Source: a virus
IMG/VR virus record: IMGVR_UViG_3300047548_000298
Coordinates: 1-42,051 of that record
Direction: 5' to 3' (one strand)
Length of the DNA stretch: 42,051 bases
Under the pieces are notes generated by a model that made no database searches, was not told the origin of the DNA, and was given only the letters and a program-made list of their open reading frames with translations. Positions 1-33,414 of the stretch are shown in pieces (positions within the stretch are counted from its first letter, which is position 1; each line of letters begins with the position of its first letter). The translations under genes and the position numbers were made by a program.

Positions 1-172
1 ATCAGCAGCATCATCAAGATCACCTGTATTACGTAACTTTTGAGCCATAGCATCTTTAGTGTTAGGCTTAAATTCTTTTGTTGACGTAGTTTTAGTTGAT
101 TTAATGACTTTCTTAGGTGCAAGAACTTTCTTCTTGGTAACTACCTTCTTAGATTCATCATAGAGACGAGCT
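1..172. repeat. Left copy of the 172-bp window-end overlap
   Basis: Positions 1-172 match 41880-42051 base for base except at 127 (T) versus 42006 (C). Both copies lie inside the scaffold gene and read in the same frame when the ends are joined. The mismatch is the third base of a lysine codon (AAA versus AAG on the coding strand), so it is silent. This is best read as the overlap of a circular or circularly permuted contig rather than a packaged terminal repeat. Confidence 0.93.
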
Positions 173-15037: not shown

Positions 15038-15206
15038 TGTAATTCGGATTAAAAAAACTTAAGGGATATTAGGTAAGCCGCTAAGTTAGTAAAGGTTAAC
15101 TTAAGGGGTCTTAGGGTGTCTGTTGGGGACTCACTCTCACGTGAAATGTCAACAACAACAACAACGACAAAGGGGTTTAACGGCTTTTTGAAATCAACCG
15201 ATTAAG

Positions 15207-15254: not shown

Positions 15255-15502
15255 CTAGGGAATGGCACGGGCTAACCCGTTGATATATATAGATAATCAT
15301 GAGATAAACTATCGGATCAGAATTCCTAAATAGCGTTTTACTCATTAGGCCATTGAGTGATTACCATTAGATCTAGGAAACTTTTCTAAAATGGCTTTTT
15401 ATCTTTTGTTTGAAAACACGGGGAATAGGGCTAGGGATCACTAGGAAAGCATTAGGGATCCGCTTAGGTAAAACTTAGGACAATGCTAGGATAAAATCTA
15501 GG
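15255..15502 (+). repeat. Array of ten YTAGG words, all in one orientation
   Basis: CTAGG occurs at 15255, 15373, 15431, 15441, 15486 and 15498, and TTAGG at 15345, 15452, 15464 and 15475. Eight of them fall within 72 bases (15431-15502). The opposite orientation (CCTAR) appears only once, near 15325. The spacing is irregular. Candidate meanings are binding sites for a phage protein, an iteron-like origin, or simply the word bias of the neighbouring early cassette. Confidence 0.5.
15435..15450 (+). repeat. 16-bp repeat GGATCACTAGGAAAGC, non-coding copy
   Basis: The identical 16 bases recur at 16608-16623 inside the Gp88-like coding sequence. Here they form the densest part of the YTAGG array. 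Two exact copies 1.2 kb apart suggest a shared binding site or a fragment duplicated from the gene. Confidence 0.55.
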
Positions 15503-17800: not shown

Positions 17801-19690
17801 TTACAGTTCACAGACTCCAGCGGAACAAGCCAATGTTTGGGCTCCCTCCACGTTGTCATCAGACTCCGTAAGAATATCCCAAGAAATCTCCTGGGGAATT
17901 TTACTCATTAGCTCCTCGTACTCTTCTTTAGTACAAGTCTCATAAGGAGCTTGTCGGTATGTACCACCATCCATTGGAAGGAAGGATACACCGCTGATCT
18001 CATCAAAGTGTTTGTATACCCAAGCACCCACCTCAACCCACTCGTGTTCTTGTACAGAAATCGTAATGGAAGGCTTATGCTCAGTATAGTGTCTCTGATA
18101 GATCAACCAAAGGTTTAGATGCTGAGTAGCTGTTAGGTCACTTCTAATCAAGGCACCCTCAGGGGCTTTCTTAGGAAACGTGAATACACTTGTGCTATCA
18201 GGTTTCATGACATCAGCTTCACAAGGGACACCAGACTCCTTCAGGAAGTTTGTAAGAGGATCTTTATTATCCCCTCTGACTCTTCTGAAGTAATACGGGT
18301 CGTGTCTTGTGTGGATACCTGAGGCTGAATCAACTAATTGCGATACAGTACCTGAAGGTTTCACAGCTGTAATTGCAGTAGACTGAGGGATGTTGAGCTG
18401 TTCTGCCCATTCCTTGTTTGTCTGTACTGCTACTTCTCTTAAGTTTTCTAACCTTGCTGGTAACTCAGGATCATCAGGATTGTTATACAGTGGATTATCT
18501 AGGATACCTGTTAAGGATACACCTAGTAGTCTTTCTTCTTCTGTATTCTTTCTCCAGACTGCTCTCAAGTACGGGAAGTTAGTTAAGGTAGCCTGTAGTG
18601 TTCCTAAGATAGTCGCTAGTTTAATCTTAGCAACTACATCAGCATGACTATCGGATGCCCTAATGACTACTTCAGTTAGGTTACAGAATTGATAAGGTCT
18701 TAGAATGATCTCACTACATGGGTTAGTACCAAACTCATAAGTGCTATCTCTTCGGCCATTCTTGGCAGCTTGTTTCTGTGAAGCTTCTCTATTAAAGATG
18801 CCACGCTCACCTGATTTAGACTCATATAATGATAACCACTCTTGCATGAATAGGCCAATGTCTGGTTTCTCTGTGTAACAGGCTGAGTTATTAGCTAATG
18901 CTCTTTGACCATTCTGTTCCCACCAAGCACCTGACTTAGCATGACGCATACGATCATCGCTAAGGTTACTTAAGGAAATCATTGCTGATCTTCTAACTCC
19001 ACCTACGACTACCACATCACCAATCTTACACATGATGTCATGACATTCTAAGGAAGTCAGTTTACGGCCCTGAGCACCCTTAAAGATCTTAGTAACGAAT
19101 TTGAATAGTTCTTCTAATGGTCCAGGACCTGAAGCTCTACCACCAAATGTCTTAAGTCTAGCCCCTGCTGGTCTAACTTTGGAGACGTCCCACTTAGGGA
19201 TCTCTCCAGACCACAATAGAGCCATCACTTGTCTTAATGCTTTTGCCCAGCCTTCTTTAGAATCCTTAACATGGACTACAGTATCTGATTCGTATAACTT
19301 CTCTGGGACTTCTGGTAGCTTAGAGATGTATTGTCTCTCTGCTGAGAATCCTACCCCAGTGCCACATAAGAGGATGTACATTGCCTCATCAAAACTCTTA
19401 GGGTCATCAATGGGTAAATAACTACAGTTATATCCTGCTGTGTTATCTCTCTTTAATGCTTCTCCTGCTGTCATGACTGCTCTCATTGAGGGCATAACCT
19501 TCAGGTCCACTATAGCCTCACTTAAGATAGCCTTAAGATGACTCAGGTCTAATCCCTGGGACTCCTTAACTTGACTTAAGATGAAATCTATATATCTATC
19601 TACAGTCTCACTCCAGTGTTCTCTTCTATTCTGCTCAGGTAAATACCTAGCATATCTACTCTTATGGATGTATTGTTGATACAGGTCCAT
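17801..19690 (-). CDS. nrdJ: Class II (adenosylcobalamin-dependent) ribonucleoside-triphosphate reductase
   Basis: A 629-residue monomeric-type class II reductase that makes deoxynucleotides with B12 as radical source. Visible residues are C89 (YNCSYLP), the catalytic C325 and E327 in GTNPCSEIIL, C336 (QFCNLTE) and the C-terminal redox pair C622/C627 (CSAGVC). The 11-residue gap between C325 and C336 and the 5-residue gap of the tail pair equal those of the Lactobacillus leichmannii enzyme. It is ~110 residues shorter than that 739-residue enzyme, mostly between C89 and C325. It is transcribed alone, against both neighbours, from a strong AAGGAG site. It would feed the phage polymerase in hosts able to take up or make B12. 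Confidence 0.93.
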   Translation of the reverse strand: MDLYQQYIHKSRYARYLPEQNRREHWSETVDRYIDFILSQVKESQGLDLSHLKAILSEAIVDLKVMPSMRAVMTAGEALKRDNTAGYNCSYLPIDDPKSFDEAMYILLCGTGVGFSAERQYISKLPEVPEKLYESDTVVHVKDSKEGWAKALRQVMALLWSGEIPKWDVSKVRPAGARLKTFGGRASGPGPLEELFKFVTKIFKGAQGRKLTSLECHDIMCKIGDVVVVGGVRRSAMISLSNLSDDRMRHAKSGAWWEQNGQRALANNSACYTEKPDIGLFMQEWLSLYESKSGERGIFNREASQKQAAKNGRRDSTYEFGTNPCSEIILRPYQFCNLTEVVIRASDSHADVVAKIKLATILGTLQATLTNFPYLRAVWRKNTEEERLLGVSLTGILDNPLYNNPDDPELPARLENLREVAVQTNKEWAEQLNIPQSTAITAVKPSGTVSQLVDSASGIHTRHDPYYFRRVRGDNKDPLTNFLKESGVPCEADVMKPDSTSVFTFPKKAPEGALIRSDLTATQHLNLWLIYQRHYTEHKPSITISVQEHEWVEVGAWVYKHFDEISGVSFLPMDGGTYRQAPYETCTKEEYEELMSKIPQEISWDILTESDDNVEGAQTLACSAGVCEL

Positions 19691-19900
19691 ACTTCTCCTT
19701 AGGTTTATTAATGGGTTAATGATCAGTACTCTTAGGTCTACTATAGTAAACTCTAGTTATCCTTAAGTAGCCTTAAGGTTTCTTGTGAGTATAAATACTC
19801 AACTAGGCTTGTGCTCCCCCTACCCCCTCATAAGAAGAAGTAAGGAAAGACTCAGTTATCTCAACTGAGGCAGTATGTCCCCAAACGAAGTGTTTCGTTC
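19691..19900 (-). promoter_or_regulatory. Structured 5' leader of the reductase mRNA
   Basis: About 210 bases between the promoter candidate and the reductase start. It can form AACGAA/TTCGTT at its very start (19884-19899), CTCAGTT-ATCTC-AACTGAG (19851-19869) and GAGTA-TAAA-TACTC (19787-19800). It also holds a direct repeat of CCTTAAG and a 10-bp palindrome TACTATAGTA (19739-19748). No cobalamin riboswitch core was recognised. The 5'-terminal hairpin may stabilise the mRNA. Confidence 0.5.
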
Positions 19901-19917
19901 TATAGTAGGGGTACCTC
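19900..19917 (-). promoter_or_regulatory. T7/T3-like promoter candidate for the reductase
   Basis: The minus strand reads GAGGTACCCCTACTATAG, ending in the G at 19900. The CTATAG at -5 to +1 equals the T7 class, and ACCC..ACTA.AG aligns with the T3 promoter. The predicted RNA would begin GAACGAA and fold at once into a 6-bp hairpin. It is 210 bases upstream of the only gene it could serve. No canonical T7, T3 or SP6 promoter is present, so the true consensus of this polymerase is unknown. Confidence 0.45.
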
Positions 19918-19949
19918 AGCACTCCCATATAAATCAATGACTTAGACTG

Positions 19950-19963
19950 ACCCCTACTCTTGA
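19950..19963 (+). repeat. 14-bp repeat ACCCCTACTCTTGA, copy 1
   Basis: Exact repeat of 20056-20069. The first nine bases also occur inverted at 19904-19912 in the reductase promoter candidate. Copy 1 lies just upstream of the proposed host promoter of the RNA polymerase gene. Both copies are next to ATGAAAAATAGT, which is also repeated (19963-19974 and 20036-20047). Confidence 0.65.
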
Positions 19964-19973
19964 TGAAAAATAG

Positions 19974-20003
19974 TTGTTTTCTTTATTATTTATATGATAT
20001 GAT
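19974..20003 (+). promoter_or_regulatory. Host sigma70-like promoter candidate for the RNA polymerase operon
   Basis: TTGTTT (19974-19979), an 18-base spacer and TATGAT (19998-20003) make a reasonable host promoter 33 bases upstream of the leader ORF. A second TATGAT overlaps at 19993-19998. The RNA polymerase gene must be read by the host enzyme first, so a host promoter is expected here. Confidence 0.5.
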
Positions 20004-20035
20004 TCGTTATCGATTCAAAAAGGAGATTCCACGAT

Positions 20036-20095
20036 ATGAAAAATAGTAAGCAGGTACCCCTACTCTTGACCGAATACATTTTGGAGGCTGTATGA
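20036..20095 (+). CDS. Leader ORF, 19 aa, translationally coupled to the RNA polymerase gene
   Basis: This 20-codon ORF (MKNSKQVPLLLTEYILEAV) has a strong AAGGAG site 10 bases upstream. Its TGA overlaps the polymerase ATG as ATGA (20092-20095). It carries copy 2 of the 14-bp repeat inside its codons. Translation of the leader could open or re-initiate at the polymerase start; alternatively a protein binding the repeat would control both. It is too short to assign a protein function. Confidence 0.5.
   Translation: MKNSKQVPLLLTEYILEAV
20056..20069 (+). repeat. 14-bp repeat ACCCCTACTCTTGA, copy 2 (inside the leader ORF)
   Basis: Exact copy of 19950-19963. With the preceding GGT it shares 12 bases, GGTACCCCTACT, with the minus-strand reductase promoter candidate at 19904-19915. 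It ends 22 bases before the polymerase start codon. Confidence 0.65.
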
Positions 20096-32580: not shown

Positions 32581-33396
32581 ATGAAAACAACCCCACCAGC
32601 AACCTTCAGAGAACTCTATAGAAGAGCTATACCAGCCCTATGGACATCTAGAGCTATGGTGAAGATTTCCTCAGCACACCTTATGGACGCTGAGAAGATA
32701 ATAGGTAATCCACGTCTTGATGAGATCAGTACAGATATGATTGATCATTACAAGAATAAGATTTCCTTTGGTGTCTCTCCAGCTACGGTTAATCGTAAGC
32801 TATCATCTATGCACAAGCTACTTAAGTATGCTCATGATCGTGATTGGCTTGCTAAGATGCCTATGTTCTCTTGGAATAAAGAAGATAACGAGAGAGTTCG
32901 TTGGCTATCTAAAGAAGAAGAACTACAGTTATTATCAATGTTACCTAAAGATGTCTCAGTGTTCTGTGAGTTATTACTACAGACTGGTATGAGACGTAGT
33001 GAGTTACTAAACCTAACTCCTGATAATGTTGATGGTAGCTATATCCGTCTATGGAAGACTAAGACTGGTAAGCCTAGATCAGTACCAATGAGCCAAAGAG
33101 CCCAGGTATTGATTAAAGACTTCTTAAGTAATAAACCTGATGTCACTAGGATTCATAAAGAGTGGCTGAAGGCTAAGAAAGCCATGGGACTAGAGAACGA
33201 TAAGAACTTTGTATTACACATCCTAAGACACACTACAGCTACCCGTATGTTAGACACTACTGGTAACATTGCAGTGGTACAAAGGATGCTTGGTCACTCC
33301 AAGATCACAACAACTATGAGATATGCTCACATAGCTGATGATAAACTGTTGGAGGCTGTACAAGCCACCTCAGAGAAACACAACTGCCTCGCTTAA
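32581..33396 (+). CDS. int: Tyrosine-type integrase
   Basis: A 271-residue recombinase from the ATG at 32581, which has GGAGAG 6 bases upstream; a longer frame back to 32527 is not supported. The core-binding part (residues ~1-100; SPATVNRKLSSMHKLLKYAH) precedes the catalytic domain. The full catalytic set is visible: R138 in TGMRRSELL, a Lys in KTKTGKPRSVP, H213 and R216 in HILRH, H239 in LGHSKI and Y248 in MRYAH. It would insert the genome into the host chromosome. It ends the rightward operon and its stop codon lies in a terminator loop, so it may be poorly expressed in late infection. Confidence 0.94.
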   Translation: MKTTPPATFRELYRRAIPALWTSRAMVKISSAHLMDAEKIIGNPRLDEISTDMIDHYKNKISFGVSPATVNRKLSSMHKLLKYAHDRDWLAKMPMFSWNKEDNERVRWLSKEEELQLLSMLPKDVSVFCELLLQTGMRRSELLNLTPDNVDGSYIRLWKTKTGKPRSVPMSQRAQVLIKDFLSNKPDVTRIHKEWLKAKKAMGLENDKNFVLHILRHTTATRMLDTTGNIAVVQRMLGHSKITTTMRYAHIADDKLLEAVQATSEKHNCLA

Positions 33397-33414
33397 TTGC
33401 GGGGCTTTTTTTTT
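33386..33414 (+). terminator. Rho-independent terminator of the rightward operon
   Basis: GCCTCGC pairs with GCGGGGC (one G-U pair) around a TTAATT loop, followed by nine Ts (33406-33414). The integrase stop codon TAA is in the loop, so termination is set right at the end of the gene. Confidence 0.9.

Follow-up and report, generated by a model that had tools for sequence, protein, structure and literature searches.

The window, meaning the whole 42,051-nucleotide stretch of viral DNA that we analyzed, is probably a complete genome: its two ends carry a 172-bp repeat with one mismatch. At the locus considered here, the genes for a B12-dependent ribonucleotide reductase (RNR) and a single-subunit RNA polymerase (RNAP) point away from each other, and the features between them are listed in Table 1. 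The RNR is up to 70% identical to phage RNRs. The RNAP has a complete set of catalytic residues (equivalents of D537, K631, Y639 and D812), and its closest match among GenBank phage records is only about 35% identical. A portal protein of the SU10 type (PF23899; 1319-3358, minus strand) is found alongside the T7-like replication and RNAP module. Where the plus- and minus-strand operons converge, strong terminator-like hairpins face each other (33386-33405, plus; 33507-33476, minus).

Table 1. Genes and predicted elements of the RNR-RNAP locus (window coordinates)
Feature	Position	Strand	Basis or remark
Class II (B12-dependent) RNR, 629 aa	17801..19690	-	Pfam PF21995, PF02867
Long last leader stem, 16 pairs	19814..19849	-	Pyrimidine 5' arm, purine 3' arm GAGGGGGTAGGGGGAG; fold
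Internal hairpin of RNR leader, CTCAGTTGAGATAACTGAG	19851..19869	-	Scan and fold
5'-terminal hairpin of predicted RNR transcript, first pair at +1	19883..19900	-	Fold; pairing across five lineages
Candidate phage-RNAP promoter (-17 to +1), facing RNR	19900..19917	-	Sequence; weight matrix 35.1; predicted start 19900
IHF-consensus site AATCAATGACTTA, between divergent promoter copies	19932..19944	+	Perfect match to consensus
Distal plus-strand copy ACCCCTACTCTTGA, facing RNAP	19950..19963	+	Predicted start 19962
RNAP-proximal plus-strand copy ACCCCTACTCTTGA	20056..20069	+	Predicted start 20068, 24 nt before RNAP start codon
T7-class single-subunit RNAP, 735 aa	20092..22299	+	PF00940 2e-104; T7 RNAP match

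Read on the minus strand from 19917 to 19900, the element facing RNR is GAGGTACCCCTACTATAG, and it continues into GAACGAAACACTTCGTTT at 19900-19883. With AGGTACCCCTACTATA followed by GAACGAAACACTTCGTTT on this strand, the predicted +1 lies 210 nt from the start codon of RNR, which is downstream. Likeness to the T3/T7 consensus was dropped as sole evidence, since it is at chance level for a single site in 42 kb. CTATAG occurs at 26 sites in the window (26-38 in shuffles), at least 10 of the 13 positions of the T3 core are matched at 17 sites (7-21 in shuffles), and hairpins with 7 bp and a loop of 4 number 129 (95-122 in shuffles). What goes beyond chance is the presence of three clustered copies, their matrix scores and the conservation of element, place and hairpin in relatives. 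Exact ACCCCTACT is found three times in the genome, all inside 170 bp, against a shuffle mean of 0.35 and a maximum of 2. In a weight-matrix scan the three copies score 35, 33 and 28, against 12.6 for the runner-up in the genome and at most 18.8 in shuffled sequence; the copies' own scores are optimistic because the matrix was built including them, but the gap to all other sites is still informative. This matrix revealed no further copy anywhere in the complete 42-kb genome, including its late operon.

Relatives in IMG/VR are few (L004 through L009, and L018), and none were found among prokaryote genomes. The RNAPs of L005, L006, L008 and L018, hereafter the four relatives, are 74-79% identical to that of the window, and each carries, upstream of RNAP, a single element directed toward the RNR side plus one or two directed toward RNAP. 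As expected of promoters for T7-class RNAPs, which are conserved repeats of about 17-23 bp that include the start site, copies number 2-3 per hub-bearing relative and three in the window. The hub sequence of L007 is the same as that of L006, and in L004, whose RNAP is 94% identical, the upstream region is missing. The initial annotation had described a T7/T3-like promoter leading immediately into a hairpin and expected the motif to be conserved in relatives with the same polymerase. Comparison backs both points: the minus-strand candidate has counterparts at the same place in all four relatives, where element, place and hairpin are kept. These lineages are few, L006 and L018 are related to each other, and the L018 contig stops before RNR; in L006, an additional 161-aa ORF lies between promoter and RNR.

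Across IMG/VR the motif occurs only with this RNAP clade, barring one unrelated coding match, and an 18-letter version matched three of 2.9 million contigs, all of them RNAP relatives. The unrelated match, exact over the 15 specified bases, is in L115 and was taken as chance; L115 is an unrelated phage, and its neighboring genes include neither RNAP nor RNR. Among RNR relatives (L035-L114), only L008 appeared again, together with unrelated partial matches. The motif was absent from L010-L017, whose RNAPs are 33-38% identical and have other loops. Of these, L011-L015 have another common element, CCTATAGCATATACGCC, upstream of the RNAP gene, possibly the promoter class of these distant RNAPs.

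The polymerase itself bears on the identity of the element. In all lineages that carry the motif the specificity loop reads QVDIKIKGKRKRQQ, save for one K/R difference in L018. An Asp occupies the position of T7 Asn748, as in T3, and the motif resembles T3 promoters in having C at both -11 and -10. The N748D substitution switches T7 RNAP to T3 promoters (PMC11477551) and was also obtained by selection (PMC4633624). In the loop alignment, which is ambiguous around T7 R756/Q758, the bases at -11 and -10 agree with the specificity loop. In L009, the 748 position is Asn and the loop, RVNIVIKGKRQQQT, is not the same. At the corresponding distance from the RNAP start, L009 carries CCGCTCACCATTGAACGAA, which differs from the clade motif at -10, -8, -7 and -4 (CGCTCACCATTG, compared with the clade element ACCCCTACT); this single case of loop and promoter covariation, read by eye, is suggestive only.

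At the 5' end of the predicted RNR transcript, the fold gives a stem of six Watson-Crick pairs with a G-U closing it at the predicted +1, in accord with the 6-bp hairpin proposed at first. The +1 G opens a predicted hairpin in 5/5 lineages, with the sequence varying and the pairing kept: over the first four pairs, every cell (20/20) shows standard pairing; pair 3 is A-U, G-U or G-C and pair 4 is C-G, G-C or A-U, so that both sides vary. An equal or better hairpin at +1 was obtained in 0.9-8% of shuffles per relative (n = 4), for a combined P of about 0.001, a value that is somewhat generous because L006 and L018 are related lineages, with 79% agreement over the leader. This hairpin is the first in a series of several, and in the window and the four relatives the leader ends with a long terminal pyrimidine/purine stem. 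At 150-200 nt the leader is more stable than shuffles (z -3.1 to -7.4). The length of the 16-pair stem in the window (19849-19814) fits an RNase III site of the T7/T3 R1.1 type, and this stem may be an RNA processing site. Since the RNR is B12-dependent, we considered a cobalamin riboswitch; the leader had no Rfam match to one at permissive thresholds, nor did it match any Rfam family.

Two plus-strand copies of the element, overlooked in the initial annotation, share the intergenic region. They read TCTTG where the minus-strand copy reads TATAG, which is unlike T7/T3, and folding gave no comparable +1 hairpins for them. In the four relatives, transcripts from the counterparts of the RNAP-proximal copy are predicted to begin 19-37 nt ahead of the RNAP start codon. 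The minus-strand promoter had been thought to serve only the reductase gene, separately from the replication operon. This part of the proposal is not supported: the same element faces RNAP and the replication genes twice (19950 and 20056), and both operons are apparently under the same polymerase from one hub. Because these two further copies face the polymerase and replication genes, RNR and replication share one divergent hub, from which both sets of genes appear to be under phage RNAP control.

The consensus WATCAANNNNTTR for IHF occurs at a conserved place in the hub; the match is perfect in the window, L006 and L008, has one mismatch in L018, and is lacking at this place in L005. The hub is probably bent by IHF. 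Divergent copy pairs are 38, 39 or 49, 50 bp apart, a difference of about one helical turn, albeit from only four values. An A+T-rich stretch covers 19960-20040 of the hub. The RNAP-proximal copy lies inside a short reading frame, MKNSKQVPLLLTEYILEAV (20037-20094, read by eye), with counterparts at 9926-9993 in L005, 7155-7262 in L006 and 438-506 in L018. The stop of this frame overlaps the RNAP start (ATGA; GTGA in L005), and L006 and L018 have an in-frame fusion; a leader peptide or an N-terminal extension of RNAP is possible. Because the RNAP-proximal copy overlaps this PLLLTE-like frame in the window, L005, L006 and L018, its conservation could be partly coding.

We conclude, at a probability of roughly three in four, that the element at 19917-19884 is one of three phage-RNAP promoters in the RNR-RNAP hub, working by the mechanism proposed below. 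Comparison of sequences is what carries the motif, its copies and their orientation, their conservation, the +1 hairpin, the structured leader and the specificity-loop match. Might the element be an operator instead, at which a regulator of phage or host origin works together with IHF, and its T3/T7 likeness coincidental? That likeness alone is at chance level, every copy lies within one control region, and the copies flank the IHF site at the 38/39 or 49/50 bp spacings, about one helical turn apart. However, each copy points out of the hub toward a gene, the promoter-defined +1 is the first paired base of the hairpin in 5/5 lineages, and the RNAP loop predicts C at -11/-10. An operator is thus unlikely. 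Less probable still is a hub that is chiefly a replication origin, with phage-RNAP transcripts priming DNA synthesis and the RNR leader hairpins acting in priming. The IHF site and the A+T-rich stretch would suit an origin, and the primary origin of T3 is annotated just downstream of phi1.05 (NC_003298). GC skew, however, tracks gene direction with no separate switch at the hub, the region at 15.1-15.6 kb, which has IHF sites together with conserved repeats, is just as good a candidate, and an origin here would be compatible with promoter activity. A host sigma-70 promoter for RNR is very improbable: its would-be -10 box, TACTAT at 19906-19901, has 4/6 consensus bases, but there is no -35 box at 16-18 bp, a scan, in which total sites fall below the shuffle counts, places none at this position, and the relatives read TACTCT or TACATT.

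Upstream of the late operon lies a strongly conserved noncoding block (15120-15200, minus strand; CAAAAAGCCG..GTTGTCGTTGTTGTTGTTGTTGAC..GAGAGAGTG), with counterparts at 5450-5540 in L005 and 3220-3290 in L006. It might act in late control, as an origin or in packaging. IHF-type sites are present upstream of the late operon in the window, L005 and L006, with no promoter copy there. CCTAAG/CCTAG-like repeats in steps of about 11 bp occur both close to RNR and ahead of the late operon (minus strand of the window, 15430-15500 and 19690-19790; L006 6590-6740). Phased binding sites were considered for the CCTAAG-type repeats, those by RNR as well as those at 15.4 kb. CCTAAG is over-represented genome-wide (46 versus 30 expected).

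For the three-promoter reading we infer transcription, start sites, mRNA stabilization and IHF binding along the following lines. Host RNA polymerase would first produce some phage RNAP. Initiation by the phage enzyme at both plus-strand copies would then boost expression of RNAP and the replication genes, and its initiation at the minus-strand copy would yield an RNR mRNA beginning at 19900. The stem-loop would sequester the 5' end of this mRNA and most likely protect it from 5'-end-dependent decay by RppH and RNase E. Bacterial mRNA is stabilized by 5' secondary structure, and pairing at +1 hinders both enzymes (PMC3997798). A bend of the IHF type in the DNA between the divergent copies may serve to coordinate their activity. 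The late genes may be transcribed by read-through from the minus-strand promoter past terminator-like sites near 17.25 kb, or by host RNAP. We regard as speculative, and rather doubtful, the notion of a T7-class RNAP dedicated to a single divergent, IHF-bent hub, serving RNR in one direction and RNAP plus replication in the other, with the RNR leader a new conserved RNA regulator made of several hairpins that controls how much RNR is produced or how far transcription reads through toward the late operon.

The closest described arrangement is that of the KP34-like phage promoters: in Klebsiella phages KP34, SU503 and SU552A, CTATAG runs straight into a hairpin at two sites per genome (PMC4411677). 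Common to both are the start box leading into a hairpin, the small number of sites and the finding of none before the late genes. Gene layout and sequence all differ, however; here three copies diverge around an IHF site with the hairpin on the RNR side only, and the hairpin sequence varies between lineages, whereas it is nearly constant in the KP34 type. With T3 and T7 our phage shares a T7-class RNAP and the start box, and with T3 the C at -11/-10 and Asp at 748; in T3, the stem-loop of RNase III site R1.1 overlaps the end of the phi1.1 promoter (NC_003298). In contrast to T3/T7, whose promoters have C-7 and T-8, the element has T-7 and C-8; it also occurs in TCTTG variants, and no promoter series runs along the genome or precedes the late genes, a trait also absent in KP34-like phages. 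Phage LUZ100 has a phage promoter, phi1, immediately ahead of its RNAP gene (PMC10134795), but it has eight such promoters, late genes included, and is without a divergent RNR promoter and hairpin. The 5'-terminal stabilizing stem-loops of bacterial mRNAs (PMC3997798) likewise pair the first transcribed nucleotide; the hairpin here, with its presumed protective role, belongs by comparison to a longer hairpin array.

This kind of viral gene switch is already known; what sets the present example apart is its divergent hub and its structured RNR leader. The conserved RNR leader represents a structured RNA outside all Rfam families, and the match between loop and promoter is a natural data point for the recognition code of T7-class polymerases. 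For an uncultured phage group, the result is a predicted polymerase-promoter pair with an exact predicted start, a predicted recognition code and a compact hub.
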